Positions 7,879-33,945 of a stretch of DNA of 64,000 nucleotides are shown here, in pieces. The first letter of the stretch is position 1, and every line of letters starts with the position of its first letter. The DNA is from Gluconacetobacter diazotrophicus PA1 5 (lineage in GTDB: Bacteria; Pseudomonadota; Alphaproteobacteria; Acetobacterales; Acetobacteraceae): NCBI RefSeq assembly GCF_000021325.1, contig NC_011365.1, forward strand, positions 1,274,501 to 1,338,500. Reading direction: 5' to 3'. The notes below the pieces were generated by a model. It saw only the letters and a program-made list of their open reading frames with translations. It searched no databases and had not been told where the DNA came from. The translations under genes and the position numbers were made by a program.

Positions 7879-7908
7879 AAAGCCTGAAAACAGGATGGAC
7901 ACGACCCC

Positions 7909-15008: not shown

Positions 15009-15012
15009 CGGG

Positions 15013-15888: not shown

Positions 15889-15904
15889 CAGCGCCCCTGA
15901 TCCA

Positions 15905-17113
15905 TCACTGTCCGTGACGGGGTGCGGCCGGCTGCACGCCGAAATGGAAGATCGTCGTGTAATCGAACGTCTCGCCCGGGCGCAGCGTGGTGGTGGGGAA
16001 GGACGGATGGTTGGGCGAATCGGGATAATGCTCGGCCTCGAACGCGATCGCGTCGGTCTGGCGGTAGGCGCGATGCGACACCCCGGCATAGGCCCCATCC
16101 AGCGAGTTCGACGTATAGACCTGCAGGCCGGGCTGCGACGTCAGGACGTCCATCGTGCGGCCGGTCCGGGGGTCCACGATATGGGCGGCCGGACGGGGTG
16201 CGGCGCCGGCCGGGCCGTTGACGACCCAGTTATGGTCGTAGCCGCGCGCGAACATCAGTTGCGGATAGGAATCGCGCAGATGCACGCCGATCCGCATCGG
16301 CTTGCGGAAATCCAGCGGCGTGCCGGCCACCGGCGCAATGTCCCCGGTGGGAATCGCCGTCGGGTCGGTGGGGGTGAAGTGATCGGCGTTGATCTGCAGG
16401 ATTTCATCCTCGATCGAGCCCGATCCCTCGCCGCCCAGGTTGAAGTAGCTGTGGTTGGTCAGGTTCAGCACCGTCGGCTTGTCGGTCGTCGCGCGATAAT
16501 GCAGCGTCAGCCGGTCCTGGTCGTCCAGCGTGTAGGTCACGCTGACCTTCAGCGTGCCGGGGAAGCCCTGGTCCCCATCCGGGCTGGTCAGCGACAGCGT
16601 GGCGCTGGCCGAATGGGCGTCCGTGGCGGTGCCGTCGACGGTCCACAGATGCTTGTCGAAGCCCCTGGTGCCGCCATGCAGCGCATTCGGCGGCGCCGTC
16701 ACGGGAACGTGATACGTCGCGCCGTCCAGGGTGAAGGTGCCGCGCGCGATCCGGTTGGCGTAGCGGCCGATCATGGCGCCGAAGAACAGGCCGCCCTGGG
16801 CGCTGTCCACCGTATAGCCCTGCAGGTCGGGAAAGCCGAGGACGATATCGTCGGTGTGGCCGGTCCGGTCGGGCGTGTCGATCGCGGTGATGATGCCACC
16901 ATAGGTGATGAAGCGCACCGAGACACCATGGGCGTTGCGCAGGGTCAGAATCTCGACCGGCTTGCCGTCCGCCATCGTGCCGAAGCCGGCCCGGGCCAGC
17001 GCGACCGGGGCATCGGCCGCCCGGACGGGCGTGGCGGATGCCAGGGTAGCGGACACCAGGGCCGTGGCCGCCAGCAGCGACGTGGCAAGACGGGTCGGGG
17101 AGATTCTGAGCAT
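15905..17113 (-). CDS. galM: periplasmic aldose 1-epimerase (galactose mutarotase)
   Basis: A 402-residue protein with an N-terminal signal peptide ending near TPVRA-ADAP (residue 33). It interconverts alpha and beta anomers of aldoses. Family features are LRNAHGVSVRFITYGGIITA, GRYANRIARGTF, NALHGGTRGFDKHLW (first catalytic His), LNLTNHSYFNLGG (second catalytic His) and the C-terminal EAEHYPDSPNHPSFPTT with the catalytic Glu. The ATG at 17113 follows AGAGGA. Periplasmic location suits an acetic acid bacterium that oxidises a single sugar anomer outside the cytoplasm. Start codon well supported. Confidence 0.93.
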   Translation of the reverse strand: MLRISPTRLATSLLAATALVSATLASATPVRAADAPVALARAGFGTMADGKPVEILTLRNAHGVSVRFITYGGIITAIDTPDRTGHTDDIVLGFPDLQGYTVDSAQGGLFFGAMIGRYANRIARGTFTLDGATYHVPVTAPPNALHGGTRGFDKHLWTVDGTATDAHSASATLSLTSPDGDQGFPGTLKVSVTYTLDDQDRLTLHYRATTDKPTVLNLTNHSYFNLGGEGSGSIEDEILQINADHFTPTDPTAIPTGDIAPVAGTPLDFRKPMRIGVHLRDSYPQLMFARGYDHNWVVNGPAGAAPRPAAHIVDPRTGRTMDVLTSQPGLQVYTSNSLDGAYAGVSHRAYRQTDAIAFEAEHYPDSPNHPSFPTTTLRPGETFDYTTIFHFGVQPAAPRHGQ

Positions 17114-17379
17114 TCTGTTCCTCTTGGCATTGTGGATTTTGCGCCACAGTGGACCAGAGTTCTCGTCGGAGGCAAGCGCCCGAATCCCCGTTGCGGGCCC
17201 GGACGGGGGGCGCCAGGTCGCGATAACGCATGACCGATCGGTCATGCGGCGGATTGCACAAGCCGCAACGCATGCTAGAGAGAACCCTTGCGGAAGACGC
17301 ACGGGCAGTCCGCGACATCCATTGGCGTCCCGATGCGTTGGCCTTTCGGGAACGGCAGACCAGGGAAACGGATACGAGT

Positions 17380-18210
17380 ATGCGCGCAATGACAGGATCG
17401 ATCTTTTCACCGTCCCGGTCATCCGCCTCTGCCCGCCGTCCGCGCCTGGTCGCCCGCCTGATCGCCGGCCTGGGAGTATCCGGCCTGGTGCTGGCCACGC
17501 TGGCGGGCTGCGCGGCCCCGCCGCCCAAGGACCCGGACGAACTGGCCGAATATCGCGAGGCCAACGATCCGTATGAGTCGATGAACCGCAAGTTCTACGA
17601 CATCACCATGAAGCTGGACAAATACTCCCTGCGTCCGGTCGCACAGGCGTATGTCTGGGCCGTGCCCTATCGCGTGCGGCAGTCGATGGGCAACATGTCC
17701 CAGACGATGAACGAGCCCGTGGTGTTCTTCACCGATGTCGGCGCCGGCAAGCCCCGCCGCGCGGGTGATGCCTTCGTGCGGTGGTGCATCAACATGGTCG
17801 CCGGCATCGGCGGGCTGATCGATGTCGCGAAATATGCCGGCTACCCCCATCACGACGACGATGCGGGGCTGACGCTGGCGACATGGGGCGTGCCGTCGGG
17901 CCCCTATCTGTTCCTGCCGATGATGGGCCCGTCCTCGTTCCGCGACGGGATCGGCTACGGCATCGATGTCGGCCTGTCGCCGTGGAACTATGTGCCCAGC
18001 GGCTACGGCCTGCTGACGTTCAACTGGGCCTACAACATCATGGGCATGATCAACGCCAGGGCCGACCATCTGGACGCGCTGGACCAGTTGCAGAAGGACG
18101 CGCTGGACCCCTACGCCACCATCCGCAGCGCCTATCAGCAGCAGCGCAAGGCCCTGGCCGACACCATCAGCCACGACCGCCGGGCCACCGTGCCCGACTG
18201 GTACAATTAA
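17380..18210 (+). CDS. mlaA: MlaA (VacJ) outer-membrane lipoprotein
   Basis: A 276-residue lipoprotein with a basic N-terminus, a hydrophobic segment and lipobox LATLAGC near residue 45. MlaA removes misplaced phospholipids from the outer leaflet of the outer membrane. Signatures seen are ANDPYESMNRKFYDI, RRAGDAFVRWCINMVAGIGGLIDVA, LATWGVPSGPYLFLPMMGPSSFRDGIG and DPYATIRSAYQQQRK. Two in-frame ATGs lie at 17380 and 17389. The next gene, mlaC-like, starts 16 bases after the stop. The inner-membrane MlaDEF genes are not in the window. Confidence 0.94.
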   Translation: MRAMTGSIFSPSRSSASARRPRLVARLIAGLGVSGLVLATLAGCAAPPPKDPDELAEYREANDPYESMNRKFYDITMKLDKYSLRPVAQAYVWAVPYRVRQSMGNMSQTMNEPVVFFTDVGAGKPRRAGDAFVRWCINMVAGIGGLIDVAKYAGYPHHDDDAGLTLATWGVPSGPYLFLPMMGPSSFRDGIGYGIDVGLSPWNYVPSGYGLLTFNWAYNIMGMINARADHLDALDQLQKDALDPYATIRSAYQQQRKALADTISHDRRATVPDWYN

Positions 18211-18225
18211 GAAGGAGACGCAGAG

Positions 18226-18861
18226 ATGAAGACAGCCCTTACCCGTCGTCATGCGCTGGGTCTCGTTGCGTGGACCGGAGTGGCCGCCGCCCTTCCCGTC
18301 GCCGGGCCGGCGCGCGCCGCCGATGCGTCGGCCGCCAGCGCCCGCGCCTTCGTCAACGATTTCGGCCTCCGGTTGATCGCGATCGTCAATTCCAACCGCT
18401 CGCTGTCCGAAAAGAAGGTGGCCATCCTGCCGCTGCTGCAGGCGCATGTGGACATGGATGCGATCGGCCGGTACTGCCTGGGCCGCTACTGGCGCGTCGC
18501 CACGCCCGAACAGCAGTCCCGCTACCTGGCCCTGTTCCATCAGGTCCTGCTGAACGCCATCACCGACAAGATCGGCGATTATCGCGGCGTGACCTTCACC
18601 ATCAACGGCACCTCGATGGTCGGCGCCGACCAGGCGGTGGATACCGTCATCAACCGCCCCGAACAGCCGGCCGCCAACACCCAGTGGATCGTCAGCAGCA
18701 GCAGCGGCCAGCCCAAGGTGGTGGATGTGGTGGGCGAAGGCACCAGCCTGCGCCTGACGCAGCGGCAGGATTATGCCTCGTTCATCGCGCGGCATAACGG
18801 CAGCGTGGACGCACTGCTGCACGCGCTGGACCATCAGGTGGCGGCCCACGCCAGCCCCTGA
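18226..18861 (+). CDS. mlaC: MlaC-like periplasmic phospholipid-binding protein
   Basis: A 211-residue exported protein with a twin-arginine-like start (RRHALG) and cleavage near GPARA-ADA. MlaC ferries phospholipids between MlaA and the inner-membrane MlaFEDB complex. Family hallmarks are VDMDAIGRYCLGRYWRVATPEQQSRYLALF and the later FTINGTSMVG, VVDVVGEGTSLRLTQRQDYASFI. It lies immediately behind mlaA with AAGGAG before the ATG, so they are co-transcribed. The call is firm. Confidence 0.92.
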   Translation: MKTALTRRHALGLVAWTGVAAALPVAGPARAADASAASARAFVNDFGLRLIAIVNSNRSLSEKKVAILPLLQAHVDMDAIGRYCLGRYWRVATPEQQSRYLALFHQVLLNAITDKIGDYRGVTFTINGTSMVGADQAVDTVINRPEQPAANTQWIVSSSSGQPKVVDVVGEGTSLRLTQRQDYASFIARHNGSVDALLHALDHQVAAHASP

Positions 18862-18878
18862 GAGTATCCGTTGTGATC

Positions 18879-18898
18879 GAGCCGCTTTCGGGCGGCTC
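18879..18898. terminator. possible shared terminator between mlaC and the HAD gene
   Basis: GAGCCGC and GCGGCTC form a 7-bp stem with a six-base loop in the 42-base gap between two converging genes. No T tract follows on either side, so termination is possible but not shown. Confidence 0.35.
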
Positions 18899-18903
18899 CT
18901 GCC

Positions 18904-19758
18904 CTACCAGCGAAAGGTGGGGACGGTGGCGACGGGTGCCAGCCCTGCCGACGTGGCTTCGGCCCGGGCGAGGGCCATGTCGTCACCGATCATTTCCTGA
19001 TGGATGCCGCCCAGGACCCAGCACCCGTCCACCCCGGCCCCCTTCGCCCCGCGCATGTCGGTGCCCAGCGCGTCGCCCACCGCCAGCACCCGCCCGCGCG
19101 GCAGGCCCAGCATCTCCAGCACCGGGGCGTAGATTTCGGGATAGGGCTTGCCGATCCAGCGGACGGCACATCCTTTCTGCGCATACAGGCTGGCCAGCAG
19201 CCCGGCACAGATCAGGCGCTGGCCGCCGCGAATGACCTCCATGTCCGGATTGGCGCAGACCATCTTCAGGCCGCGCGCGGCGCATTCGGCCAGGATGGGC
19301 AGGTAGGGCGCGGGATCGTTCTCGCCCCGGTCCTGATCCGGGCCGGTATTGAGGATGAAGTCGGCGTCGGCGGGGCTGTCCACCCGCTCCAGGTCCAGCC
19401 CCTCGAACAGGTTGTAATCCTTGGGCGCGCCAAGATGCAGCATGCGCCGCCCCAGACCGGCGAACCACGGGTCGGTCCGCGCGGACAGCAGGCCGCGCGT
19501 ATATTCGCCGCTGGTCATCACCCCGTCATACAGGTCGTCCGCCACCCCCATGGCGCGCAGGCCCTCGCGCACCACATCGACCCGGCGCGGCGCGTTGGAC
19601 AGCAGGATCACCCGCCGCCCCAGGTCGCGCAGGCGCGCCAGGCAATCGGCTGCGCCGGGATACGGGCTGACGCCGTCATGCACGACGCCCCACAGATCGA
19701 CGATGAACCCGTCATACCGCCCGGCCAGCGGGGCGAAGCCGTCCAGGCTGTCCATCAT
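18904..19758 (-). CDS. HAD-superfamily class IIA hydrolase (TIGR01459-like)
   Basis: A 284-residue phosphatase-like protein. The HAD motif I is FIVDLWGVVHDG near residue 20, where the first Asp is the nucleophile and W replaces the usual second D, as in the TIGR01459 subfamily. Motif II is LLSNAPRR near residue 53, and motif IV is LAVGDALGTDMRGAKGAGVD near residue 216. This class includes NagD/PGP-like enzymes acting on small phosphate esters. Its ATG overlaps the pyrD stop by four bases. Substrate unknown. Confidence 0.88.
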   Translation of the reverse strand: MMDSLDGFAPLAGRYDGFIVDLWGVVHDGVSPYPGAADCLARLRDLGRRVILLSNAPRRVDVVREGLRAMGVADDLYDGVMTSGEYTRGLLSARTDPWFAGLGRRMLHLGAPKDYNLFEGLDLERVDSPADADFILNTGPDQDRGENDPAPYLPILAECAARGLKMVCANPDMEVIRGGQRLICAGLLASLYAQKGCAVRWIGKPYPEIYAPVLEMLGLPRGRVLAVGDALGTDMRGAKGAGVDGCWVLGGIHQEMIGDDMALARAEATSAGLAPVATVPTFRW

Positions 19759-20828
19759 GCGGTTCCCTTCGCATCCGCCAGGGTTTCGAACCCTTCGGCG
19801 TTGAGGACCCGCACGGTCTCGCGCTTCAGCCGGCGCACGATCCCCGGGCCTTCATAGGCAAACGCGCTGTAGAGCTGCACCAGGTCGGCCCCGGCGCGCA
19901 CCCGGTCCACGATGTCGGCCCCGGTTTCGATCCCGCCGCAGGCCACCAGTGCCAGACGGCCGGCGGCGACCTGCGCGACCGCGCGGAAGATATCGGCCGC
20001 CAGCGGGCGCAACGGACGGCCCGACAGGCCGCCGGCCTCGCCCGCATGGGGGCTGCGCAGCCCGGCGGGGCGCGAGATGGTGGTATTGGTCACGATCAGC
20101 CCCTGCGCCCCGCCCGCGATCGCGGCCTCGACGATCGGGCCGATATCGTCGCGTGCCAGGTCGGGCGACAGCTTGACCAGCAGCGGCGGCCGGTCGGGAT
20201 GGGCCTCGCCGATCGCCTGCAGCAGCGCGCCCAGGCGCGAGGCCTCCTGCAGGTCGCGCAGGCCCGGCGTGTTGGGCGACGACAGGTTCAGCACCACGTA
20301 ATCGGCATAGTGCTTCACCCGCCCGACCAGGCGGGGATAATCGCGCTCGGGGTCCGCGCCGAACTTGTTGATGCCCAGATTGGCCCCGACCGGCACCCGC
20401 GCCCCAGCATGCCGGCCGGCGGGCGAGACCCGATGCAGTCGGGCCAGCCGCACCGCGAAGCGGTCGATCCCCTGGTTGTTGAAGCCCATGCGGTTGATGA
20501 TCGCGCGGTCTTCGTCCAGGCGGAACAGGCGCGGGCGCGGGTTGCCGGGCTGCGGCCGGGGGGTCACGGTTCCGGCTTCGACAAAGCCGAAACCGATCCG
20601 GGCCAGCGGCCGGACCACCAGCGCGTTCTTGTCGAACCCGGCGGCGATGCCGATCGGATTGGGAAAGCGCAGGCCCAGCGCCCGCACCGCCAGCGCCGGA
20701 TCGTCCTGGCCCGACCCGCTGCCGCCCCCCAGGCCGAGCAGGAGCGCGTTCAGGCCGAGGCGATGCGCGTCCTCGGGGTCCAGCCGCCGCACCAGCGGCA
20801 TCAGCATGTTCGACATGATATCCATCAT
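19755..20828 (-). CDS. pyrD: dihydroorotate dehydrogenase (quinone), class 2
   Basis: PyrD oxidises dihydroorotate to orotate and passes electrons to quinone at the membrane. The 357-residue protein has the class 2 N-terminal amphipathic extension (LVRRLDPEDAHRLGLNAL), then FPNPIGIAAGFDKNA, TVTPRPQPGNPRPR, NRMGFNNQG, VLNLSSPNTPGLRDLQ with the catalytic Ser, and LVACGGIETGAD near the FMN phosphate site. The ATG at 20828 overlaps the preceding gene's stop. It is part of a minus-strand run behind two quinone-reducing dehydrogenase operons. Confidence 0.96.
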   Translation of the reverse strand: MMDIMSNMLMPLVRRLDPEDAHRLGLNALLLGLGGGSGSGQDDPALAVRALGLRFPNPIGIAAGFDKNALVVRPLARIGFGFVEAGTVTPRPQPGNPRPRLFRLDEDRAIINRMGFNNQGIDRFAVRLARLHRVSPAGRHAGARVPVGANLGINKFGADPERDYPRLVGRVKHYADYVVLNLSSPNTPGLRDLQEASRLGALLQAIGEAHPDRPPLLVKLSPDLARDDIGPIVEAAIAGGAQGLIVTNTTISRPAGLRSPHAGEAGGLSGRPLRPLAADIFRAVAQVAAGRLALVACGGIETGADIVDRVRAGADLVQLYSAFAYEGPGIVRRLKRETVRVLNAEGFETLADAKGTA

Positions 20829-22054
20829 GGCTGGATTTTCTGCCGTACATCTCCGATCGAGGAAAGAGGCGCCGCGACGTCGGTCGGGCAGCGGATCAGG
20901 AAATAGGGGGGCACGCGCAGGTCGTGCCCGCCATTGAAGCTGGCCAGGCGGTTCCATTGCCCGAGCGTGCAATAGACATAGCCGTCATGGACGAAGATCC
21001 CGTCCGGCGACAGCACGCGCGGGTCGCGCACCACCGTATCGAACGTGCCGTCCGGATTGCGGCGGAAGATCGCGTCATGCTCGAAATTGGTCGTATAGAT
21101 CCGGCCCTGCGGATCGGTGGCCAGGCCGTCGGCCACGCCCTTTTCGCCCAGATCGGCGACGGCGGCCGCCAGGTCGGCGTCGGTCTTCGAAAAATCCGAG
21201 AGCAGCGCGGTCGGCAGGCTGTAGAGCCGTCGGCTGGTCAGCGGGGAATAATATAATGTCGCGCTGTCCGGGCTGAGCGTGATGCCGTCCACCCCGCCGG
21301 AGACGAACGTGGGATGATGCGGATCGAACACCAGCGGCCGCCCCTCGACCACCGTCATGAAGCCCCGCTCGGCCTGCGTCGAGGGATGGGTGGCCAGGAC
21401 GCGGCGCTGGCGGCCGGTGGCGAGATCGACCACCACCAGGGCCGGATGGGTCCCGAACGACGAATCGGTCACATAGGCCGTTCCCTGCGCCCCATGCGTC
21501 AGATCCACCCGCAAATCGTTCATGTGGCTGTCGGACAGCAGGGTCGGCGCGGTCAGCACGATGCTGGCGACGATGCGGTTGGTCGCCGGGTCGATCCCCA
21601 CCACTTTCGCCGCGCCGGGCCGCAGGGGCTGGCCGGCCAGCTTGCCGTCATCGATCAGCCACAGCCGGCCGCGCGTGTCGGTGGTCATGCCATGCACCGA
21701 CATCAGCCGGGCGGACGGCGCACGGGCGGACGGCAGGCTGGTCGCGGCGTCGGGATAGGGCACCAGCGCCCCGCCCTTCAGTTCCGCCAGCGTGGCGCCG
21801 GTGTGGTTGACGGCATGGCGGGGGAAACCGACGAACATGCGCCCGTCAGGGGTGATGGCGATCCCCGAGGGACCGGGATCGGCGAATTCGGCCACGATCT
21901 CGAACGATCCGGCCGAATTGAAGCCGTGATCGGTATTGGTGGCGAAACTGGCGGGCGGCGCGGCCCGCGCCGCACGACCGGCCAGGGCCAGCGCGCCGCT
22001 GCCCATCATGGCGCCGCCCAGCACGGCATGACCCAGGACGGATCGACGTTTCAT
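20825..22054 (-). CDS. exported major royal jelly protein-family protein
   Basis: A 409-residue beta-propeller protein with a Tat-like signal (KRRSVLGHAVLGGAMMGSG) cleaved near GRAARA-APP. Internal features such as GIAITPDGRMFVGFPR, LWLIDDGK, SHMNDLRVDL, GTAYVTDSS and SPDGIFVHDGYVY match the royal jelly/Yellow family (PF03022), which is related in fold to SMP-30 lactonases. Bacterial members are found near sugar-oxidising enzymes, but their reaction is not settled. A role on sugar lactones or as a ligand-binding partner of the adjacent dehydrogenases is an inference. It ends on the pyrD start. Confidence 0.82.
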   Translation of the reverse strand: MKRRSVLGHAVLGGAMMGSGALALAGRAARAAPPASFATNTDHGFNSAGSFEIVAEFADPGPSGIAITPDGRMFVGFPRHAVNHTGATLAELKGGALVPYPDAATSLPSARAPSARLMSVHGMTTDTRGRLWLIDDGKLAGQPLRPGAAKVVGIDPATNRIVASIVLTAPTLLSDSHMNDLRVDLTHGAQGTAYVTDSSFGTHPALVVVDLATGRQRRVLATHPSTQAERGFMTVVEGRPLVFDPHHPTFVSGGVDGITLSPDSATLYYSPLTSRRLYSLPTALLSDFSKTDADLAAAVADLGEKGVADGLATDPQGRIYTTNFEHDAIFRRNPDGTFDTVVRDPRVLSPDGIFVHDGYVYCTLGQWNRLASFNGGHDLRVPPYFLIRCPTDVAAPLSSIGDVRQKIQP

Positions 22055-22090
22055 GGCGTTTCCCCCGTATGCTTTCAGGCAAGTCTGCTT

Positions 22091-23491
22091 TCAGGCAGGG
22101 CGGCGGCGGGCCACCAGCAGCCAGATCAGGGCCAGCACGACCGCCAGGGCAGCCACCATGGCGGGAACGATATATGAGTCAACCCGCGCCAGCAGCGGCC
22201 TGGCCCCGCCGGCGCGGGACCGCGCCACGTCGGCCGCCGAGACATGGACCGACGGATCGCCGAACTGCGCCAGCACATAATTGCTGACATCGGCGACATC
22301 CTGATCCGACAGTTCATCGACATACGACCCGTGCGAGAAGCCGGGCATGTAGACATGCCGGCCGGCCACCGTCCGGTCCACGCCCTGCAGGATCGCGGCA
22401 ATCAGATTGTCCGGCGTGCGGGCGCCGGTCGCGGTGTTGTGGAACAGTTGCGGGTAATATCCGTCCTGGCTGCCCTGGCCGGTCGGGCGATGGCAGGCTG
22501 CGCAGTCGCCGGCAAACAGGCGCGCGCCATGCGCCAGCGTGTCCGGCGCCGCGCCACGGACCAGGGCGTCACTGTCCGACGCCGCGCCGTACGCGTCGCG
22601 CGCCTTGCGGTCGGCCGTATCCCGAATGGCCGGGACCTGGCGCACATAGGCGACGATCGCCTTCAGGTCCGCGTCGTCGAGATACTGGAAACTGTGCTCG
22701 ATCGCCTCGGCCATCGGACCGGCGGCCTGCGCCTTGCCCGGCACGTCGCCGGTCTTGAGGTAGCGGTACAGTTCGTCGGCGCTCCAGGTGCCGATACCGC
22801 TGACGGGGTCGGGGGTGATGTTCGGCGCGACCCATGAGCCCAGGGCGGCACCGCCCAGGTTCCTGTCGCCGATTTCCGCCATCGTCACGTTGCGCGGCGT
22901 ATGGCAGGTATCGCAATGCGCCAGCGCGACCGCCAGGTAGGCACCGCGATTGACTTCGGCGGATCTGGCGGGATCGGGGGTGAAGCGCGTCCGGTCCAGA
23001 TACAGCATGTTCCAGCCCCACAGGGACAGGCGCACGTTGAACGGGAACGGCAGCTTCGTCTGCGGCGCCACCGCGTCGACCGGCTGTACCGCCTGGGTGA
23101 AATAGGCGTACAGCGCGTGGATGTCGGCGTCCGTCATCCTGGCATAGGACGTATACGGCATGGCCGGATACAGGTGCGCCCCGTCGGCCCGGACGCCGTC
23201 ACGCACCGCGGCGGCGAACTGGGCCTCGGAATATCCGCCGATGCCCCCGTGCCGGGACGGGGTGATGTTCGAGGAATAGATCGTGCCCAGCGGGGAAGCG
23301 ATGCCGTATCCCCCCGCGAACGGCCGGCCGCCATTCGGGGCGGTATGACAGGCCACACAATCGGCGGCGGTGGCCAGATAGCGGCCGCGCGCCACCAGGC
23401 CGGCCCCGGAATCGCCCCCGTCCTGCGCCAGCGCGGTACCGCCGAACGATACGAGGACCAGGGCGGCGGCGCGCGCCGTCCTGCCGATCAT
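22091..23491 (-). CDS. three-haem membrane cytochrome c subunit of dehydrogenase set 2
   Basis: A 466-residue exported cytochrome with signal peptide to about residue 22 and three CxxCH sites: CVACH (residue 45), CDTCH and CAACH. A single hydrophobic helix near the C-terminus (PAMVAALAVVLALIWLLV) anchors it in the membrane. It accepts electrons from the FAD large subunit and reduces ubiquinone. Its ATG at 23491 overlaps the large-subunit stop by four bases and has AGGGGGG upstream. The layout matches SldC/AdhB-type cytochromes of acetic acid bacteria. Confidence 0.93.
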   Translation of the reverse strand: MIGRTARAAALVLVSFGGTALAQDGGDSGAGLVARGRYLATAADCVACHTAPNGGRPFAGGYGIASPLGTIYSSNITPSRHGGIGGYSEAQFAAAVRDGVRADGAHLYPAMPYTSYARMTDADIHALYAYFTQAVQPVDAVAPQTKLPFPFNVRLSLWGWNMLYLDRTRFTPDPARSAEVNRGAYLAVALAHCDTCHTPRNVTMAEIGDRNLGGAALGSWVAPNITPDPVSGIGTWSADELYRYLKTGDVPGKAQAAGPMAEAIEHSFQYLDDADLKAIVAYVRQVPAIRDTADRKARDAYGAASDSDALVRGAAPDTLAHGARLFAGDCAACHRPTGQGSQDGYYPQLFHNTATGARTPDNLIAAILQGVDRTVAGRHVYMPGFSHGSYVDELSDQDVADVSNYVLAQFGDPSVHVSAADVARSRAGGARPLLARVDSYIVPAMVAALAVVLALIWLLVARRRPA

Positions 23492-25146
23492 GCCCGTCCC
23501 CCCTGGAGGTCGGCCCGCATGGCGTCGGCGGCCTTGAGGCCCAGCGCCACCATGCTCAGCGTCGTGTTGACGACGCTGGCCGACGGCATCGCGCCGCCGC
23601 CCGGCAGCCACAGATTCGGATGGTCATGGGCACGGCAGTCACCGTCCACCACCGAATCCTTCGGGTCGCGGCCCATGATCGCGCCACCCATGATGTGGTT
23701 GTTGGCATTGAACGAGGTGGTGATCCGCAATTCGCTGCCGCCCAGCAGGGCGGCCACCTGCCGAATCTGGTCGGCGGCGGCCACGGCGCCTTTGCGCACA
23801 TACTCGCCGACATCGTAATGGATGTCCGGGCACGCCAGTCCCAGCGGGTCGCGCCGGGTGCGGCTCAGGGTCAGGCGGTTGTTCGGATCGGGCAAGGGCT
23901 CCAGGCTGACCGACAGGTCCACGCCGCGCGCCGCCCGGCGACGGATTTCGTCGTCCAGCGCCTGGCCGACCAGGCCCAGGGCCAGGGCCTGCTGCGTGGC
24001 GGGCGCGACGCGGCTGATATTGTTCAGGATCATCTTGTTGGCGGAATAGGTGCTGCGGAAGCCGCCATCACGCGGGCCGACGATGCAACTGCTCTGCGCC
24101 GGGCCGCGGCCGAACCAGAGCGGCTCGTTCGCCAGGAACGTCGCATGCACGCCCGAATGGTCCATCATGTTGCGCCCGACCTGGTCGGACGAATTGGCGA
24201 TGCCTTTGGGGTTGCGCGCATTGGCCGCCAGCAGCAGCAGGCGCGGCGTTTCGATGCCGTTGCAGGCCAGGACGAACATGCGCCCCGATGCCTTGTGCGA
24301 CGTCCGCTCCGCATCGTACCAGTGAATGGCGGTGATACGGTTCGCCTCGTCGGTGTCGATCCGGTAGGCGACGGCCTGGTCCAGCACGACCGCGCCGGCA
24401 TCTTCCGCCTTCACCACGTGCTGGATGCCGTTATACATCGCCCCGATGGGGCAGATCGGCTGGCAGTTATTGTTGCCGCAGCATGACGGACGATCCTCGA
24501 ACGGCTGGATGCTGCGTCCCTGCGGGATCGGTACCAGATGGAACCCGTGCGGGTTGACCAGTTCGGCGACGCGGCGATCGGCATAGCCGAACGGAATCAT
24601 GTCGCGCGGATAGGGGCGACTGCGTTCGCGCGGGGACTGCAGGTCCGGGTCGTGCGGGCCGGAAACGCCCATCGCCTCTTCCGCGCGGCAGTAATAGGGT
24701 TCCAGGTCGTCGTAGGAAATCGCCCAGTCGCGACCCACGCCGTACCGGGTCTTCATCTGGAAGTCGACCGGCAGGTGGCGCCAGCACGACGCCGCCCAGT
24801 GCCACGTGGTGCCGCCGACGGTGCGCAGATATCCCTGCTGGAACGCCGACCCGTCCGGGCCGCTGAGCCCGACATAGTCGTTGGCCGGGAAATAGAGCGG
24901 GGCCGGGGCCAGCGGCGCCTGGGGATACAGGCCCTGGAAATCGGATTGGACCCGGTTGTGGAACGACATGTTCCGCCAGTTCTCGACGATGTCCGATCGC
25001 TTCAGCCGCAGGCCGGCCTCCAGCACCAGGACCGAATGCCCGGCGGCGGCCATCTGGTGGGCGATCATCGCCCCGACGACGCCGGAGCCCACGATCACGA
25101 CATCGGCCGTCACGTCACCGGAACTGGAAAAGACGGGGTGCGCCAC
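23488..25146 (-). CDS. FAD large subunit (GMC family) of dehydrogenase set 2
   Basis: A 552-residue GMC oxidoreductase. The FAD-binding VVIVGSGVVGAMIAHQMA begins near residue 16. The Cys cluster SCCGNNNCQPICPIG (Cys 222, 223, 228 and 232) matches the 3Fe-4S site of FAD-linked sorbitol, fructose and gluconate dehydrogenases. The C-terminus has the catalytic-His region (NNHIMGG) and WLPGGGAMPSASVVNTT. It has no signal peptide and is presumably exported together with the Tat-signal small subunit. Gene order small-large-cytochrome matches sldSLC or gndSLC. Substrate (polyol, ketose or aldonate) cannot be decided from sequence alone. Confidence 0.9.
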   Translation of the reverse strand: MAHPVFSSSGDVTADVVIVGSGVVGAMIAHQMAAAGHSVLVLEAGLRLKRSDIVENWRNMSFHNRVQSDFQGLYPQAPLAPAPLYFPANDYVGLSGPDGSAFQQGYLRTVGGTTWHWAASCWRHLPVDFQMKTRYGVGRDWAISYDDLEPYYCRAEEAMGVSGPHDPDLQSPRERSRPYPRDMIPFGYADRRVAELVNPHGFHLVPIPQGRSIQPFEDRPSCCGNNNCQPICPIGAMYNGIQHVVKAEDAGAVVLDQAVAYRIDTDEANRITAIHWYDAERTSHKASGRMFVLACNGIETPRLLLLAANARNPKGIANSSDQVGRNMMDHSGVHATFLANEPLWFGRGPAQSSCIVGPRDGGFRSTYSANKMILNNISRVAPATQQALALGLVGQALDDEIRRRAARGVDLSVSLEPLPDPNNRLTLSRTRRDPLGLACPDIHYDVGEYVRKGAVAAADQIRQVAALLGGSELRITTSFNANNHIMGGAIMGRDPKDSVVDGDCRAHDHPNLWLPGGGAMPSASVVNTTLSMVALGLKAADAMRADLQGGRA

Positions 25147-25149
25147 GGA

Positions 25150-25806
25150 TCAATGCTCCTTTGCCGGGGGCTTGGTCGGAAGAATCCTGGATTGCGCCGG
25201 GGGTTTGGCTTCGACGCCGACCGGCGGCGGGGCCGGCGCGGGTACCGGAACGGGCGACAGGACCGCCACGCCCAGCGCGGGCGGCACTTCCGTCCACCAG
25301 CCCGGTGTGCCGAAGCAGTAGGTCGGCACCGGCAGCGCATCGTCCGTGGGGCGGTACATCAGCGCGTCCCGGTAGGCGACCATGGGCGCGTTGGTCCTGT
25401 CCTGCACCGAACCGGTGTACCAGGCCGCGACCAGGTCCAGCATCGTCTGGCGCTGGTTCGCCTCCTCGGCGCGGGCCAGGATTTCCTCGGGCTTGCCCCC
25501 GGCGACGGCCAGGCGCGACAGGGCGGCGATCCGTGCGCCGTAATTCGGAAAGGTCCGGACCATTGCCGCGAAAAGCCGGGTCCCGATCAGGGGATTCAGG
25601 TCCTGCCGTCCGGTCACCGCCCGGGACACCGCCAGGAACCGCGCCTCGTCCGGGCTCAGCGTCAGGGCGACGGCACGGCCGGGAACCAATGCCCCGGGCG
25701 CCAGGGCGGAGGCACCGGCCACGGCCCCCGCCGCCATCAGCGCCCGCCGGCTGACGCCCGGCGCGGCGTCGATCGTCTTCGCCCCCGTCGGTAAGGGATC
25801 GCTCAT
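25150..25806 (-). CDS. small (Tat-signal) subunit of dehydrogenase set 2, sorbitol-dehydrogenase type
   Basis: A 218-residue protein with a twin-arginine signal (VSRRALMAAGAVAG) and resemblance to the small subunit of membrane-bound FAD sorbitol dehydrogenase (LTLSPDEARFLAVSRAVTGRQDLNP, LVAAWYTGSVQ, MYRPTDDALPVPTYCFGTPGWWTEVP). The small subunit is needed to stabilise and export the large subunit. It carries an unusual 40-residue Pro-rich tail (PVPVPAPAPPP, then Lys/Pro). The ATG is at 25806. The large-subunit gene begins three bases after its stop. Confidence 0.88.
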   Translation of the reverse strand: MSDPLPTGAKTIDAAPGVSRRALMAAGAVAGASALAPGALVPGRAVALTLSPDEARFLAVSRAVTGRQDLNPLIGTRLFAAMVRTFPNYGARIAALSRLAVAGGKPEEILARAEEANQRQTMLDLVAAWYTGSVQDRTNAPMVAYRDALMYRPTDDALPVPTYCFGTPGWWTEVPPALGVAVLSPVPVPAPAPPPVGVEAKPPAQSRILPTKPPAKEH

Positions 25807-25894
25807 TGTCTCTTCACTCCAACACGGGCGCGTCATCCCACGCCCCTGCACGCGAACCCTGCCGTTCGCGCCTTGGGATATTCCAATCCGGCGT

Positions 25895-26395
25895 TCAGCC
25901 GGCGTCGTGCCCGGTCCAGACGGCCATGCCGGCCTCGGCCGCCTGTTCGTCCTGCGGGTTGGACCCGCCGCTGACGCCGATCGCGCCGATCACCCGTCCA
26001 TCTTCGATGATCGGAATGCCGCCGGCCGCCGGCATGGCGTCCGGCAGCGCCAGCACCGCCATCCTGCCGCCCGCCAGCGCCTGCTCGAACGACGCGGAAG
26101 GGCGTTTGTAGAGCACCGCGCTGCGCGCCTTGCGTTCCGCCAGCGCCAGGCTGGCCAACTGGCTACCCTCCATCCGTTCGACCAGGATCGGGAAACCGCC
26201 CGCATCGACGATCGTCACCGCGACGCTGGTATGGTTTTCCACCGCGCGGCGTTCGGCGGCACGGGCCATGGCCCGCGCCTGGTCAAGGGTGGGCGCTACA
26301 TCGGGGGCGCTGGACGGGGCAGCAACGAGGCGGCTCATCGGCAGGACCGTAAAGATGCCGGCCAGGAACGATATTAAAAAAAGCTTTCTTTTCAT
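25895..26395 (-). CDS. exported GlcG/HbpS-family protein
   Basis: A 166-residue protein with a signal peptide (KRKLFLISFLAGIFTVLPM) and a GlcG/HbpS (PF03928) domain: LDQARAMARAAERRAVEN, VAVTIVDAGGFPILVERMEG, ERKARSAVLYKRPSASFEQAL, GGIPIIEDGRVIGAIGVSGG. Relatives bind haem or are found beside sugar and glycolate oxidation genes. It sits between two FAD dehydrogenase operons on the same strand (gaps about 71 and 88 bases). A periplasmic haem- or cofactor-related role for the cytochrome subunits is an inference. Confidence 0.85.
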   Translation of the reverse strand: MKRKLFLISFLAGIFTVLPMSRLVAAPSSAPDVAPTLDQARAMARAAERRAVENHTSVAVTIVDAGGFPILVERMEGSQLASLALAERKARSAVLYKRPSASFEQALAGGRMAVLALPDAMPAAGGIPIIEDGRVIGAIGVSGGSNPQDEQAAEAGMAVWTGHDAG

Positions 26396-26466
26396 CACGC
26401 ACTTTCGATCGCGACATCCTGAAGAACGAACGGTCCGCCCTGATGCCGGACCGTTCGCAGGCTCGA

Positions 26467-27813
26467 TCAGTTCAGCGGCAGGCCGGTGACCACGTCCCCA
26501 CGCGGCAGCGCCTTGCGCACGCGGGCCACGTCCGCTTCCGTCACAGGCGCCGCGTCGTTGCCCCACGCCTTGCGAATGAAGCTGACGACATCGGCCACTT
26601 TCCGGTCCGACAGGCGGTCGGCGAAACCCGGCATCACGAAGGAAGACGGCGCGGCATGCGTGGCGCGCAGCGTATCGCCCGTCAGCACGATATGGATCAG
26701 CGAGTCCGGCGCATGGCCCATCACCACCGGGTTGCCCGCCAGCGGCGGGAACACGGTCGGATAGCCGTGCCCATCGGTGCGATGGCAGGCGGCGCAGCGA
26801 TCGACGTAGGTCCGGGCCCCCGGGGCCGATACGTCGCCCGCATGCAGCGCGTTCGCCAGCGCCGCGTCATAGACCCATGGCGCCTGCGTCGTGTCGTCGG
26901 GCGGCAGCGTCTTGAGGAAGCGCGCAATAGCATGCAGGTCGGCATCGGTCAGATGCTGCGTGCCGTGTCCGACCGCGTCCGACATGCCGCCGAAGGCCGA
27001 TCCCGCCTGGATGCGGCCGGTCCTGAGGAAAGCGACGATGTCGTCTTCCGACCAGCGGCCCAACCCGGTGCGGTTCTCGCCGCGCAGGCTGGTCGGAACC
27101 CAGCCGTCGATGGCCCCGCCGCCGCCCAGGAAGCGCGTGCCGTCCTGGGCCGTCAGGGCGACTTCCTGCATCGTCACGGCGCGCTGGGTGTGACAGGCGC
27201 CGCAATGCCCGGGCCCTTCGACCAGGTAGGCGCCACGCGCCACCACCGGATCGGAAAAGGCCCGGCCGGAACTGGCCTGCGCGTCCCTGACCGAGGGCGC
27301 GAACAGCGCGCGCCAGAAGATCAGGGGCCAGCGCATGGACATCGGCCAGGGGATGGTGCCGGGCCGGTTCGGCTGGGCGACCGGCGCCACGCCATGCATG
27401 AAATAGACGTACAGCGCATGGATGTCGGCATCCGACATCCGCGCGTACGAGGGATAGGGCATGGCCGGATACAGCATCGCCCCGTCGCGGCGCACGCCTT
27501 CGCGCACCGCGCGGGCGAATTCGGCCTCGGTATACGCACCGATGCCGTGCCCCGCGTCGGGCGTGATGTTGGGGGCGTAGAGCGTGCCCATTGCCAGCGC
27601 GAAGGGCAGGCCACCCGCGAACGGCTTGCCGCCCGGTGCCGTATGGCACGCCACGCAGTCCGAGGCGCGCGCCATATATGCGCCCTGCGCGACCAGCGCC
27701 GCCTCGGTACCGGCCTGGACCTGGGCCCGGGCGGGGGTGGCGGCAACCGGGAACGCCAACGCCGCCAGGCCGCCGAACAGGGCCGCCAGGCCGGCCCGCT
27801 TACGATACCCCAT
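26467..27813 (-). CDS. three-haem cytochrome c subunit of dehydrogenase set 1
   Basis: A 448-residue exported cytochrome with signal peptide to about residue 30 (ATPARA) and three CxxCH sites: CVACH (residue 53), CGACH and CAACH. It is similar in layout to the cytochrome of set 2 but ends at VVTGLPLN with no C-terminal hydrophobic helix, so its membrane attachment must differ. It should carry electrons from the FAD subunit to quinone. Its ATG shares a base with the large-subunit stop (TGATG). Confidence 0.93.
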   Translation of the reverse strand: MGYRKRAGLAALFGGLAALAFPVAATPARAQVQAGTEAALVAQGAYMARASDCVACHTAPGGKPFAGGLPFALAMGTLYAPNITPDAGHGIGAYTEAEFARAVREGVRRDGAMLYPAMPYPSYARMSDADIHALYVYFMHGVAPVAQPNRPGTIPWPMSMRWPLIFWRALFAPSVRDAQASSGRAFSDPVVARGAYLVEGPGHCGACHTQRAVTMQEVALTAQDGTRFLGGGGAIDGWVPTSLRGENRTGLGRWSEDDIVAFLRTGRIQAGSAFGGMSDAVGHGTQHLTDADLHAIARFLKTLPPDDTTQAPWVYDAALANALHAGDVSAPGARTYVDRCAACHRTDGHGYPTVFPPLAGNPVVMGHAPDSLIHIVLTGDTLRATHAAPSSFVMPGFADRLSDRKVADVVSFIRKAWGNDAAPVTEADVARVRKALPRGDVVTGLPLN

Positions 27814-29597
27814 CAGATCTGCACCAGCGGGCCGGGGTTCTTCAGGTAGGTCGTGCGGATATGATACGCCGACCAGTAGGCCAGGGCCGCCACCATGCCC
27901 GTGGGGTTGTAGCCCGTTCCCTGCGGGAAGGCGTTGGCGCCGATGACGAACACGTTGGACACGTCCCAGCTTTGCAGATAGCGGTTCAGCGCGCTGGTCT
28001 TCGGGTCGGCGCCCATGACGGCGCCACCGGCCAGGTGCGTCGTCTGGTAATAGCGCGTGTCGAAATGCTCGTCCGGCTGCCGCTGGCCGAAATGCACGTC
28101 GCGCGCGCCCATCGCCCGGGTCACCTTGGCAATCTGGCCGACGACGTACCGGTTCATGCGGATGTCATTGTCCTTCCAGTCGAAGGTCATGCGCAGCAGG
28201 GGCAGGCCGTACGCGTCCTTCCATGTCGGGTCCAGGTCCAGATACACGTCGCGATAGGCCATGTTGGACCCGTGCGCATCCATGCGGACCGAATGCCGGT
28301 AGGTATCGACCATGGCCTTCTTCCACGCCGACCCCCAACGTGGCGTGCCCGGCGGACCGCCACTTTTGGCGGCGGCGATGGCCTTGATGCCGGCCTGGTT
28401 CACCCACACGGGCGACCCGCCGACGAAGCCCAGCGGCCCGTGGTCGAAATTCTCGCTGTTGAAATCGTCGAAGGCGACGCCGCCGCCGCCGGTTCCGATA
28501 AACTGTTTGGTATAAACCGATTTGTCGAGCCACGCCGTGGTGGTGGTGACGTTCTGGTAGACGAAATTGCGCCCCACCACGCCCTCGTTCGCCACCGGGT
28601 CGTAGGGCTTGCCGATCCCCGACAGCAGCATCAGATGCACGTTGTGGAACTGGAACGCCGCGACGACGACCAGGTCGGCGGGCTGGAACACCGTATCGCC
28701 ATTGCTGTCCAGGTAGGTGACGCCCGTCGCCTGCTTTTTGGTACTGTCGAGCTCGACACGCAGGACGTGCGCGCGGTCGCGCAACTGGAATTTCGGATCG
28801 GTGCGCAGCACCGGCAGGATATTCACGTTCGGCGAGGCCTTCGAATACATGTAGCAGGCATAGCCGCTGCAATATCCGCAGAAATTGCACGGCCCCATCT
28901 GCACGCCGTACGAATTGGTATATTGCGCCGAGGCATTCGCCGCCGGCATCGCATAAGGATGGAACCCGACTTCCGCTGCCGCGCGGCGGAACAGGCTGGC
29001 GCCATACACGTCCTTCAGCGCCGGCAGCGGGAAATGGTCGGAACGCGACGGCGCGAAGACATTCCCCTTGCCGACGACCTGCCCGTTGACGGTATAGGCC
29101 TCGCCCGACGTGCCGAAGACTTTCTCGGCCTTGTCGAAGAACGGTTCCAGTTCGTCATAGGTGACGCCGTAATCCTGAAGGTTCATGCCTTCGGGGATGA
29201 ATTTCTCGCCGTATTTTTCCTTGACCTTGCTGCGCAGGATCAGGTCGTCCGGCGGCATGCGGAAATGCACGCCCGACCAGTGCAGGCCGGCGCCCCCGAC
29301 CCCCTCGCCCGGCAGGAACGCGGCCATCTGACGATAAGGCAGTGCGGTCTGGCTGGAATTGTTGCGGATCGTCACCGAGCTGCGGGAGAGATCCTGGAAG
29401 ATCTTGTGACGGAAATTGCCCTGCAGTTCGTCGATCGAACCGGGATAGGCGCCGTCGCTGGCCGTGCTGCGGTCGGCGCCGCGTTCCAGCATGACGACAT
29501 TCAGTCCGGCCTCGGTCAGTTCCTTGGCCATGATCGACCCGGCCCAACCACCGCCGACCACCACCGCATCGACGGATTTCATCGTGATATTCGCCAT
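27813..29597 (-). CDS. FAD large subunit (GMC family) of dehydrogenase set 1, gluconate 2-dehydrogenase-like
   Basis: A 594-residue GMC oxidoreductase. The FAD motif VDAVVVGGGWAGSIMAKELTEAG starts near residue 9. The cluster CNFCGYCSGYACY (Cys 237, 240, 243 and 248) is the 3Fe-4S site of gluconate and 2-ketogluconate dehydrogenases. Near the C-terminus are TTHLAGGAVMGADPKTSALN and GANAFPQGTGYNPTGM. Length and partner genes fit membrane-bound gluconate or 2-ketogluconate dehydrogenase, which oxidises sugar acids in the periplasm. The ATG at 29597 comes one base after the stop of the subunit 3 gene. Exact substrate is not provable here. Confidence 0.9.
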   Translation of the reverse strand: MANITMKSVDAVVVGGGWAGSIMAKELTEAGLNVVMLERGADRSTASDGAYPGSIDELQGNFRHKIFQDLSRSSVTIRNNSSQTALPYRQMAAFLPGEGVGGAGLHWSGVHFRMPPDDLILRSKVKEKYGEKFIPEGMNLQDYGVTYDELEPFFDKAEKVFGTSGEAYTVNGQVVGKGNVFAPSRSDHFPLPALKDVYGASLFRRAAAEVGFHPYAMPAANASAQYTNSYGVQMGPCNFCGYCSGYACYMYSKASPNVNILPVLRTDPKFQLRDRAHVLRVELDSTKKQATGVTYLDSNGDTVFQPADLVVVAAFQFHNVHLMLLSGIGKPYDPVANEGVVGRNFVYQNVTTTTAWLDKSVYTKQFIGTGGGGVAFDDFNSENFDHGPLGFVGGSPVWVNQAGIKAIAAAKSGGPPGTPRWGSAWKKAMVDTYRHSVRMDAHGSNMAYRDVYLDLDPTWKDAYGLPLLRMTFDWKDNDIRMNRYVVGQIAKVTRAMGARDVHFGQRQPDEHFDTRYYQTTHLAGGAVMGADPKTSALNRYLQSWDVSNVFVIGANAFPQGTGYNPTGMVAALAYWSAYHIRTTYLKNPGPLVQI

Positions 29598-29598
29598 G

Positions 29599-30291
29599 TC
29601 AGGCCGTCTCGCCGGAAATCGAGACGGTGCCGAGCGGATATTCCTTCCCGTACTGGTCGACCCAGTCCATGAAATCGGCGCGGGCACCGGGGAAGCCGAT
29701 CGTCGTCCAGCCGCCCAGCCCCTTGTTTCCACCGTGAATGGGGTCGGAGAACGCCCCTTCCATGGTATTGTTCAGAAGCTGCGCGAAGAAGACGCTGGCC
29801 GGCAGGTCACCGAACCGCACGTCGCCTGTCTCGAACCCCTGCAGGATGACATCGCGCGTCGCGGCATCCAGCGCATGGAACGACTGACCGTATTTCGCCT
29901 TCACGAACGCTTCGGCCCCGGCGATGCCCTTGCGGTAGATGTCGCGGGGGGTGAAGGGAAGCTGGTACCCCAGATTGTCCGGTCCGGACACGAACGGTGC
30001 CTGCATGTACCACAGCTTTCCGTAGGCATACGGTGTTTCCATCTGGCGGTCGATGAATTCCGGCACCCCCAGGGCGATCGCCCCGGGACCGACCGCGTCC
30101 TCGGGGATCAGGCGGTCACAGGCCGCATGCAGGAATGCCCATTCCGGTTGCGAAAAAAATCCGGGCGTATAGGACGACCGTTCGGTCGAACGGGCGGCAC
30201 GTGCGGGAAGCGTGGCCGAACCCAGTGCCGCAGCACCGGCCAGACCCTGCATGAACGTCCTGCGGGACGGATCGGACGAGGGAAGTGTCAT
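29599..30291 (-). CDS. gluconate 2-dehydrogenase subunit 3-like small subunit (Tat signal)
   Basis: A 230-residue protein with a twin-arginine signal (PSRRTFMQGLAGAAALG) followed by the gluconate 2-dehydrogenase subunit 3 domain (PF13618): EWAFLHAACDRLIPEDAVGPGAIALGVPEFID, LWYMQAPF, GFETGDVRFG, FFAQLLNNTMEGAFSDPIHGGNKG. It chaperones and co-exports the FAD subunit. First gene of a small-large-cytochrome operon. An FNR-like palindrome lies about 90 bases upstream of its ATG. Confidence 0.9.
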   Translation of the reverse strand: MTLPSSDPSRRTFMQGLAGAAALGSATLPARAARSTERSSYTPGFFSQPEWAFLHAACDRLIPEDAVGPGAIALGVPEFIDRQMETPYAYGKLWYMQAPFVSGPDNLGYQLPFTPRDIYRKGIAGAEAFVKAKYGQSFHALDAATRDVILQGFETGDVRFGDLPASVFFAQLLNNTMEGAFSDPIHGGNKGLGGWTTIGFPGARADFMDWVDQYGKEYPLGTVSISGETA

Positions 30292-30815
30292 GACATCACG
30301 AAGCTCCGGGGAACACCGGGGGGGGCAAAAAACGATCTATTCTTGTTTTGAACTGCGGTTATGTCCGCTTATCCACTTGACCTAGATCAGAACTCGCACC
30401 GCTGGCAACCCCGCCCGTCCGTGCCGATCCGGCGCCGTGCAAACCGGAACCCGCACGTTTCACGCCTGTCCACACGGGAATCCATCCCCGCCCGGTTCCG
30501 GCGAAACTTCATAATCCATCATCATAATCCCGATCTTCCCCGGCCGCCGCCGTGACGGATCACCCGCCGCCCGGCCCGCGCGAAGCAGGACGGTTCCCCG
30601 CCGATTATCACGCAATTGTTATGAAGATCTGTCGCAGTTCCGCGACAGTCTTCCTTACGGCCTGTAGAGTAGATTTAAATTGTATTTTAAACGTCCGGGG
30701 CAAGTTTAATACAACATTATCAATATATTCCCGTTCCAGGCACGTCTGACGCCCTTTTATCCTTGGGCGTAATCGCACATGGAGGCCAGAAGCCGCCCGG
30801 TTACGACGGATACTC
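30292..30815. other. intergenic leader/promoter region of the dehydrogenase island
   Basis: This 524-base gap separates the 3' end of fumC from the first gene of the dehydrogenase run. It holds the FNR-like site at 30377-30390, an AT-rich block at about 30660-30735 with several TATAAT-like runs, and a weak hairpin (ACGCCC/GGGCGT, 30750-30772) that may end fumC transcripts. Two open frames of 64 and 65 codons on the plus strand have no ribosome sites or motifs and are not called. Confidence 0.6.
30377..30390. promoter_or_regulatory. candidate FNR/CRP-family binding site
   Basis: TTGACCTAGATCAG matches the FNR consensus TTGAT-N4-ATCAA at eight of ten half-site positions. It lies 86-99 bases ahead of the ATG of the gluconate dehydrogenase subunit 3 gene. 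FNR-type regulators control respiratory genes in Gluconobacter. Binding is not shown. Confidence 0.45.
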
Positions 30816-32264
<1,449 letters not shown>

Positions 32265-32413
32265 CGTGTGGTCCTCCCGGGTCGTCTTTGCCTTTGTCTT
32301 CCGAAACAGAAGGAAAAAGGCCTTTATTCACCAAGGGACGTTACATGTCCCACCACCGCAATCCTCAACGAATCAGACGTTTTTCGGTTCTTTTTTCCAG
32401 CAGGAACAAAAAA

Positions 32414-32438
32414 GGCGGCCCGTCACAGACGGGCCGCC
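32414..32438 (-). terminator. intrinsic terminator of the histone H1-like gene
   Basis: On the minus strand, GGCGGCCCGTC pairs perfectly with GACGGGCCGCC (11 bp) around a three-base loop, followed by TTTTTT (32413-32408). It lies 26 bases after the stop of the histone-like gene. Confidence 0.93.
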
Positions 32439-32463
32439 CTTTCAAATCGACAAGCGTTCGGGA

Positions 32464-33444: not shown

Positions 33445-33945
33445 ATAAATACAACCTTCCGCTTGTCCTGATGGCCATCGTCCGGGCGGTAGCGCGCCAG
33501 CGCCATGGGCCCATGGTCCGAACGGAAATCCCGAAAAGCCGTTTCGTTCCCACCATGCCGGATACCCGCCCGAACTGAGGTCAATGAAATACCTCGTTCT
33601 TCGGCATCATCTCGACCCTGCACGGGCACATGTCAAGTCAAAGCCATGACGGATTGCATTTTTTTCTTGCAGGACGAAACACAGATCGCACCCCCTCTTG
33701 GAAGGAAAGAGCAGTCGTATTTTATTTTTCCTATATTATATAACGATTCTGACAAAATCGTCCCAGGCCGCCGCCCACCCTTCCCCCATGTCGCGCGGGC
33801 GCCCGCCGCACCGATGAAAAACGGAGCGCGCGGGCGCCGCCCGCCGGTTCACGAGGCCGGCGGGACTCCGGCCACCGTCGGCGGGACCGGAAAACCGACC
33901 ATATTCCGGTCCGATTTCGCGACCCGCCCCCCGCTACCCCGCGCT
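33445..33945. other. intergenic region upstream of the histone-like gene
   Basis: About 500 bases between the pirin stop and the histone-like ATG. The part at 33650-33760 is AT-rich, with TATAAT on the minus strand at 33740-33735, a possible -10 element for the histone-like gene about 290 bases upstream of its ATG. I see no gene here. Confidence 0.4.

Follow-up and report, generated by a model that had tools for sequence, protein, structure and literature searches.

Within a 64,000-nucleotide stretch of Gluconacetobacter diazotrophicus PA1 5 (PAL5; contig NC_011365.1, positions 1,274,501 to 1,338,500; here called the window), a run of ten minus-strand genes contains two complete flavin adenine dinucleotide (FAD) dehydrogenases in tandem, each made up of a small subunit, a large subunit, and a cytochrome (S-L-C). 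The explanation that we favor, with a probability of about 0.85, is that set 1 (GndSLC) and set 2 (KgdSLC) would catalyze a two-step periplasmic oxidation, that a cassette of a GlcG-type gene and kgdSLC was inserted into an older locus, that the two sets belong to two transcription units, and that the downstream pyrD and HAD phosphatase genes are neighbors only. GndSLC would oxidize D-gluconate to 2-keto-D-gluconate in the periplasm, and KgdSLC would oxidize 2-keto-D-gluconate to 2,5-diketo-D-gluconate in the same compartment; set 1 would feed set 2, because the product of the former is the substrate of the latter. Judging from the enzyme families, each FAD/Fe-S large subunit would be exported by means of the twin-arginine signal of its small subunit, and each triheme cytochrome c would pass electrons to ubiquinone. 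In the literature excerpts used here and below (cited by PMC number), electrons are described as passing via heme c to ubiquinone, with ubiquinone marked as not experimentally verified for the 2-ketogluconate enzyme (PMC9171043). This reading is built on what the sequences hold, namely, subunits, clades, synteny, and a hairpin.

The tandem had been described in a first-pass annotation made from the letters of the window, and all ten open reading frames proved to be open over the coordinates in Table 1, start codons aside; the likeliest starts of the GlcG gene (26395) and pyrD (20828) differ from those in the list of open reading frames, while all other coordinates are as listed. That annotation had also placed the genes less than 100 bases apart or overlapping throughout, and the sequence agrees. 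In set 1, gndS and gndL are separated by 1 bp, gndL and gndC overlap by 1 base, and 71 bp lie between gndC and the GlcG gene. A gap of 88 bp then precedes kgdS, with 3 bp between kgdS and kgdL and a 4-base overlap between kgdL and kgdC. Downstream, 36 bp separate kgdC from a gene of the MRJP family, and the MRJP-pyrD and pyrD-HAD junctions are overlaps of 4 bases each. As had been proposed, the two sets are not recent copies of one another: the large subunits share ~22% identity, the small subunits belong to different Pfam families (PF13618, Gluconate_2-dh3, in set 1; PF12318, FAD-SLDH, in set 2), and the Cys clusters differ (C237/C240/C243/C248 in GndL versus Cys 222/223/228/232 in KgdL). Both large subunits have the N- and C-terminal GMC domains of Pfam and a GxGxxG motif, both cytochromes match Cytochrom_C and carry three CXXCH motifs, and both small subunits have a twin-arginine motif. 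By hydropathy, a C-terminal hydrophobic segment is present only in KgdC, with none at the end of GndC.

Set 1 likely oxidizes gluconate to 2-ketogluconate, the substrate of its orthologues. In the large-subunit tree, GndL falls in the clade of characterized Gnd enzymes, on an 18-row side that includes the Gluconobacter sphaericus copy (locus L066) fitting IGS75_07935 by gene order. The G. sphaericus proteins IGS75_07930 to IGS75_07940 are Gnd subunits with 95.2 to 99.5% identity to the active GndXYZ (PMC9692623). The gnd copy in L066 appears to be IGS75_07930-07940, since three tags lie between gnd and kgdS (published tags IGS75_07930 to 07910), as three genes do in L066 (gndS-LacI-OprB-GlcG-kgdS). 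Known Gnd features are a twin-arginine small subunit and a triheme cytochrome without a membrane segment (PMC9692623); set 1 has both, and the PF13618 match of GndS comes from the Pfam search made here. Set 1 further resembles Gluconobacter GndXYZ (GOX1230-1232; EC 1.1.99.3) in its S-L-C order and in the length of the large subunit (592 to 594 amino acids [aa]), and GndL is 74% identical to the copy beside kgd in L066, but it is closer (80 to 83%) to the large subunits of Komagataeibacter-like gnd, which precedes MRJP-pyrD-HAD. GndL has only four cysteines (237, 240, 243, and 248), all within CNFCGYCSGYAC; they are invariant in 20 of 20 aligned family members, are spaced unlike the CCGNNNC cluster of Kgd and fructose dehydrogenase (FDH), and likely hold an Fe-S cluster. 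An AlphaFold model of GndL (alignment of 20 sequences) had a mean predicted local distance difference test score of 45 and was not used. Dye-linked gluconate dehydrogenase activity has been reported for strain PAL3, with no gene assigned to it in the excerpt (PMC2765452).

Set 2 likely oxidizes 2-ketogluconate to 2,5-diketogluconate, as judged again from orthologues. KgdL lies in a 21-row Kgd clade with a support of 100, FDH forming a separate clade, and its Cys cluster reads CCGNNNCQPIC. In Gluconobacter oxydans ATCC 9937, knockouts of kgdS, kgdL, and kgdC each abolished the conversion of 2-ketogluconate to 2,5-diketogluconate (PMC9304662). Thirteen of the 14 kgd primers given for that strain (Table 1 of PMC9304662) map with 0 to 2 mismatches onto L066, on which five of the six 1,000-bp knockout arms are reproduced to the base. 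L066 was the best primer fit among the 19 loci compared (of 80 named kgd loci), with the last two primers sought in four loci. The large-subunit gene under the kgdSLC primers is 83% identical to KgdL, which is an orthologue of this knockout-proven subunit; the kgd large subunit is also 84% identical to that of G. dulcium. All 80 named kgd loci share the S-L-C order on a single strand, as does set 2. Moreover, KgdL and KgdC of the window fit the published description, in which KgdL is 552 aa long and KgdC, in contrast to the Gnd cytochrome, ends in a membrane segment (PMC9692623): the former has 552 aa, and the latter has its segment at 441. Set 2 is thus most like Gluconobacter kgdSLC (EC 1.1.99.4), which it matches in subunit order, large-subunit length and identity, a GlcG gene just upstream, and a triheme cytochrome with a C-terminal membrane segment; the difference is that set 2 follows a gnd from a different lineage in tandem and that neither a LacI nor an OprB gene separates the two. 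Since GndL lies in the Gnd clade and KgdL is orthologous to Kgd, the pathway gluconate to 2-ketogluconate to 2,5-diketogluconate is likely. The first-pass annotation had proposed a two-step oxidation unit ending on a quinone also used by PyrD; its two different enzymes of one chain are supported, the large subunits grouping with different characterized enzymes, and its inclusion of PyrD is not.

It is unlikely that the seven dehydrogenase genes (GlcG included) form a single operon with the MRJP, pyrD, and HAD genes, as a redox unit on a shared quinone pool. Such an operon would fit the gaps, all below 100 bp, the 4-base overlap between pyrD and the MRJP gene, and a gene order kept in the tandem genomes, except for GlcG in L181. 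However, a strong hairpin lies between the two sets (26427-26457; an 11-base perfect stem, with a TTCTTC tail to 26421; RNA fold z of -2.6), and each of the five tandem genomes compared (the window, L061, L062, L179, and L181) has a hairpin immediately after gndC, four of these hairpins having a T-rich tail; a single transcript over the whole run is therefore doubtful. In addition, pyrD-HAD is found with fumC alone or with gnd but no kgd. The hairpin is probably an intrinsic terminator, weak to moderate in strength, and gnd and GlcG-kgd are probably separate transcription units, possibly only partly apart. The stems of G. johannae, G. azotocaptans, and L179 are related to each other and unlike that of PAL5, and L181 has a third kind. 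The gndC-MRJP interval of the eight kgd-less Komagataeibacter-like loci showed no hairpin of this kind followed by a T-rich tail; a stem of 7 to 9 bases lacking the tail is present in three of them. Toward the end of gndC, strong hairpins also occur in G. dulcium (stem of 15) and G. tumulicola (stem of 13). A scan for promoters and terminators gave counts no higher than those of shuffles (2 versus 1.9; 3 versus 5.3), and an Rfam search of window positions 15000 to 35000 gave no match at gathering scores.

We also considered whether set 2 could be a fructose or sorbitol dehydrogenase instead of Kgd, which we regard as very unlikely. The sorbitol part of this alternative comes only from the Pfam name (FAD-SLDH) of the family matched by KgdS, and the points against it concern FDH. 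FDH (Protein Data Bank [PDB] entry 7w2j) is the best solved relative of both KgdL (659 bits) and KgdS (68 bits); KgdC scores 434 bits to the glucose dehydrogenase beta subunit (8hdd) and 423 bits to the FDH cytochrome. FdhSCL likewise has a GMC large subunit with a CCGNNNC cluster, a related small subunit, and a triheme cytochrome. KgdL, however, shares 53% identity with the FDH group but 83% with the orthologue under the kgdSLC primers, and it lies outside the FDH clade, of which one group member (L012) scores 1,238 bits to 7w2j. Moreover, the FDH-type cluster in L203 is ordered S-C-L, in contrast to the S-L-C order of set 2.

The tandem is best read as an older gndSLC-MRJP-pyrD-HAD locus that received a GlcG-kgdSLC cassette between gndC and the MRJP gene. 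The older arrangement, without kgd, was found in all eight loci examined from two genera (g60 and g73) that, by our own labeling, appear Komagataeibacter-like; MRJP and pyrD were both missing from the stretch in the other 14 gnd loci mapped. In the tandem genomes, GlcG-kgdSLC (in L181, kgdSLC alone) lies between gndC and the MRJP gene. In the trees, the sister of the tandem gnd is the g60/g73 gnd, whereas the gnd linked to kgd in Gluconobacter, G. dulcium, and G. tumulicola stands apart, so gnd and kgd appear to have been brought together with two gnd lineages, kgd itself being shared. The whole run, on this comparison, is not one ancestral unit. The Gluconobacter sphaericus cluster (IGS75_07900-07940) likewise has both pathway enzymes and GlcG in one neighborhood, but there they are divergent, with LacI and OprB genes between and a different gnd lineage; Gluconobacter, G. 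dulcium, and G. tumulicola share that layout (L066 positions 5648-8348). An origin of the tandem as an inverted copy of this divergent cluster, and not as a separate assembly, is very improbable: the dehydrogenases and the GlcG-kgdSLC order are the same and OprB lies beside gnd in three tandem genomes, but the 11 kgd-linked gnd large subunits do not form one clade (forcing them into one was 187 log units worse in an approximately unbiased [AU] test; p-AU of 7e-66, on a quick tree and with the constrained group named after the first tree was seen), and the flanking MRJP-pyrD-HAD agrees with the Komagataeibacter-like gnd locus. The tree for the AU test had 33 rows and used 22 of the 30 loci L031-L060; L031-L033 were left out because they repeat named rows, and L040, L052, L055, L056, and L059 were left out by choice. 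Of the 80 named loci, 19 contributed KgdL rows to the large-subunit tree, and L022, which has one stop, was left out of alignment A1.

The proposed functional link to PyrD found no support. Use of ubiquinone is general to class 2 PyrD; the eight g60/g73 loci have pyrD-HAD next to gnd-MRJP but no kgd, and in six other Gluconacetobacter genomes, fumC, pyrD, and the HAD gene are direct neighbors (fumC-pyrD gaps of 128 to 491 bp). We initially considered an insertion of the entire gnd-kgd-MRJP block between fumC and pyrD but dropped this idea in view of gnd-MRJP-pyrD-HAD elsewhere.

Several observations weigh against parts of the explanation that we favor. As for set 2, the 14th and outermost primer (kgdS up-F), which lies upstream of GlcG, shows 7 mismatches in L066 where it is expected. 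Strain PAL3 grown on gluconate accumulated 2-ketogluconate as the major compound (PMC2765452), so Kgd may be a weak enzyme or one that is expressed only at times. As for the two transcription units, the L181 hairpin lacks a T-rich tail and the PAL5 tail is short, so that termination after gndC may be partial, and the promoter and terminator scan, which was stricter, did not list this hairpin. As for the insertion, the adjacency of fumC and pyrD in other Gluconacetobacter genomes is not accounted for, MRJP and pyrD are 1.2 kb apart in L192 (one of the eight g60/g73 loci), and the 22 loci of the gnd map were picked by hand among 108 genomes that had a match. That kgd was inserted, and not lost from the Komagataeibacter-like genera, is suggested by parsimony. 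Finally, GlcG was absent from the examined stretch of 68 of the 80 named kgd loci, and in L181 (positions 11460-11789; genome G304) only about ten codons from its start remain, with gnd and kgd in place.

A match to KgdL of at least 78% was found in 11 of 299 genomes sampled. The tandem is present in three of these (G000, G215, and G123) and a divergent pair in one (G277); gnd is distant on the same contig in three (G025, G250, and G008) and on another contig in four (G048, G054, G131, and G180). Genomes G302, G303, and G304 were added through pyrD relatives and stand outside this count, and G303/L062, G123/L061, and G277/L063 were each treated as the same genome. The carriers of the tandem form one Gluconacetobacter clade: G. 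diazotrophicus, G. johannae, G. azotocaptans, and two further genomes. Among named kgd loci, gnd lies within the stretch in 8 of 80, several stretches ending at contig ends. In the nine g60/g73 genomes of the sample, no match to KgdL exceeded 52% identity. Separately, Kgd relatives in S-L-C order, with 68 to 77% identity in the large subunit (L073-L140), are widespread beyond the acetic acid bacteria, in Burkholderia, Janthinobacterium, Rahnella, Tatumella, and Rhizobium.

GlcG lies directly upstream of kgdS in L061-L069 and beside kgd in 12 of the 80 named loci, in one of which it is downstream and reversed. It appears to be dispensable, L181 representing a natural loss; one can only guess that it helps to load heme or flavin. 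GlcG/HbpS-like genes adjoin three flavocytochrome dehydrogenases, namely, kgd (in the window), a gnd paralogue in G123 (L189 positions 12103-12774), and the FDH-type S-C-L cluster in G250 (L203 positions 1414-1935). An OprB gene lies between fumC and gndS in three tandem genomes (G. johannae, G. azotocaptans, and G302). PAL5 has no OprB gene upstream of gndS but a 524-base gap (30292-30815), and the best match to OprB, at 61%, is elsewhere in its genome. No close relative of the LacI regulator was found in the tandem genomes searched (best match, 37%, in PAL5); in the divergent clusters, LacI may act locally to regulate the formation of 2,5-diketogluconate.

Table 1. Features of the minus-strand run, with predicted functions (window coordinates)
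Feature	Coordinates	Strand	Evidence
gndS, gluconate 2-dehydrogenase small subunit, 230 aa	29599..30291	-	PF13618, 116.6 bits; twin-arginine signal SRRTFM
gndL, gluconate 2-dehydrogenase FAD large subunit, 594 aa	27813..29597	-	GMC domains; Gnd side of tree; four-Cys cluster
gndC, triheme cytochrome c subunit, 448 aa	26467..27813	-	Three CXXCH; Pfam; no C-terminal hydrophobic segment
Hairpin with TTCTTC tail, putative intrinsic terminator	26421..26457	-	11-bp perfect stem directly 3' of gndC stop
GlcG/HbpS-like small exported protein, first gene of kgd unit	25895..26395	-	PF03928, 112 bits; position upstream of kgdS
kgdS, 2-ketogluconate dehydrogenase small subunit, 218 aa	25150..25806	-	PF12318, 164 bits; twin-arginine signal SRRALM
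kgdL, 2-ketogluconate dehydrogenase FAD large subunit, 552 aa, GTG start	23488..25146	-	83% to Gluconobacter sphaericus kgd gene; Cys cluster as in FDH
kgdC, triheme cytochrome c subunit, 466 aa	22091..23491	-	Three CXXCH; C-terminal hydrophobic segment at 441
MRJP/yellow-like protein, old neighbor of gnd, not kgd	20825..22054	-	PF03022; synteny
pyrD, class 2 quinone-dependent dihydroorotate dehydrogenase, neighbor outside sugar pathway	19755..20828	-	DHO_dh; NF003645, 452 bits; synteny
HAD-IIA phosphatase overlapping pyrD, neighbor	18904..19758	-	HAD (Pfam); TIGR01459, 174 bits; pyrD-HAD adjacency

The enzymes and the pathway are known, and an outline of them had been proposed in 2009; the analysis adds a specific assignment, the view of pyrD as a bystander, and the proposed history of insertion. 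The PAL5 genome paper of that year assigned GDI0854-0856 to a three-subunit gluconate 2-dehydrogenase and stated that a GMC oxidoreductase (GDI0859) and a cytochrome (GDI0860) "probably" make 5-keto- and 2,5-diketogluconate (PMC2765452). We infer that GDI0854-0856, GDI0859, and GDI0860 fit the order gndS-gndL-gndC-GlcG-kgdS-kgdL-kgdC one for one; in G215, of the same species, the tandem lies near 0.87 Mb, where gene ~855 of 3,864 is expected. In a partial search of the literature on the locus and on ketogluconates of the genus, we found no description of the gnd-kgd tandem arrangement.

In the description of a Komagataeibacter species, Komagataeibacter is distinguished from Gluconacetobacter by the absence of a brown pigment and of a 2,5-diketo product from glucose (PMC7465234). 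We suggest tentatively, as a possibility that we consider doubtful, that the GlcG-kgdSLC insertion is the gene-level cause of this genus-distinguishing trait and that the gnd-kgd linkage arose twice. Three genomes of the window's genus (G042, G174, and G247) had no close kgd in the 299-genome sample, which counts against this idea, as does another source of 2,5-diketogluconate, the pyrroloquinoline quinone-dependent gluconate dehydrogenase (PMC7465234). If true, a classical chemical character that separates genera of acetic acid bacteria would gain a genetic explanation that can be tested. The comparison also indicates that one pathway pair was assembled with two different gluconate dehydrogenase lineages. 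The enzymes themselves are ordinary, and the locus is of modest evolutionary interest. For this nitrogen-fixing sugarcane endophyte, the analysis would replace the loose assignment of 2009 with a specific enzyme, KgdSLC, and would set the genes of the pathway apart from bystanders such as pyrD.

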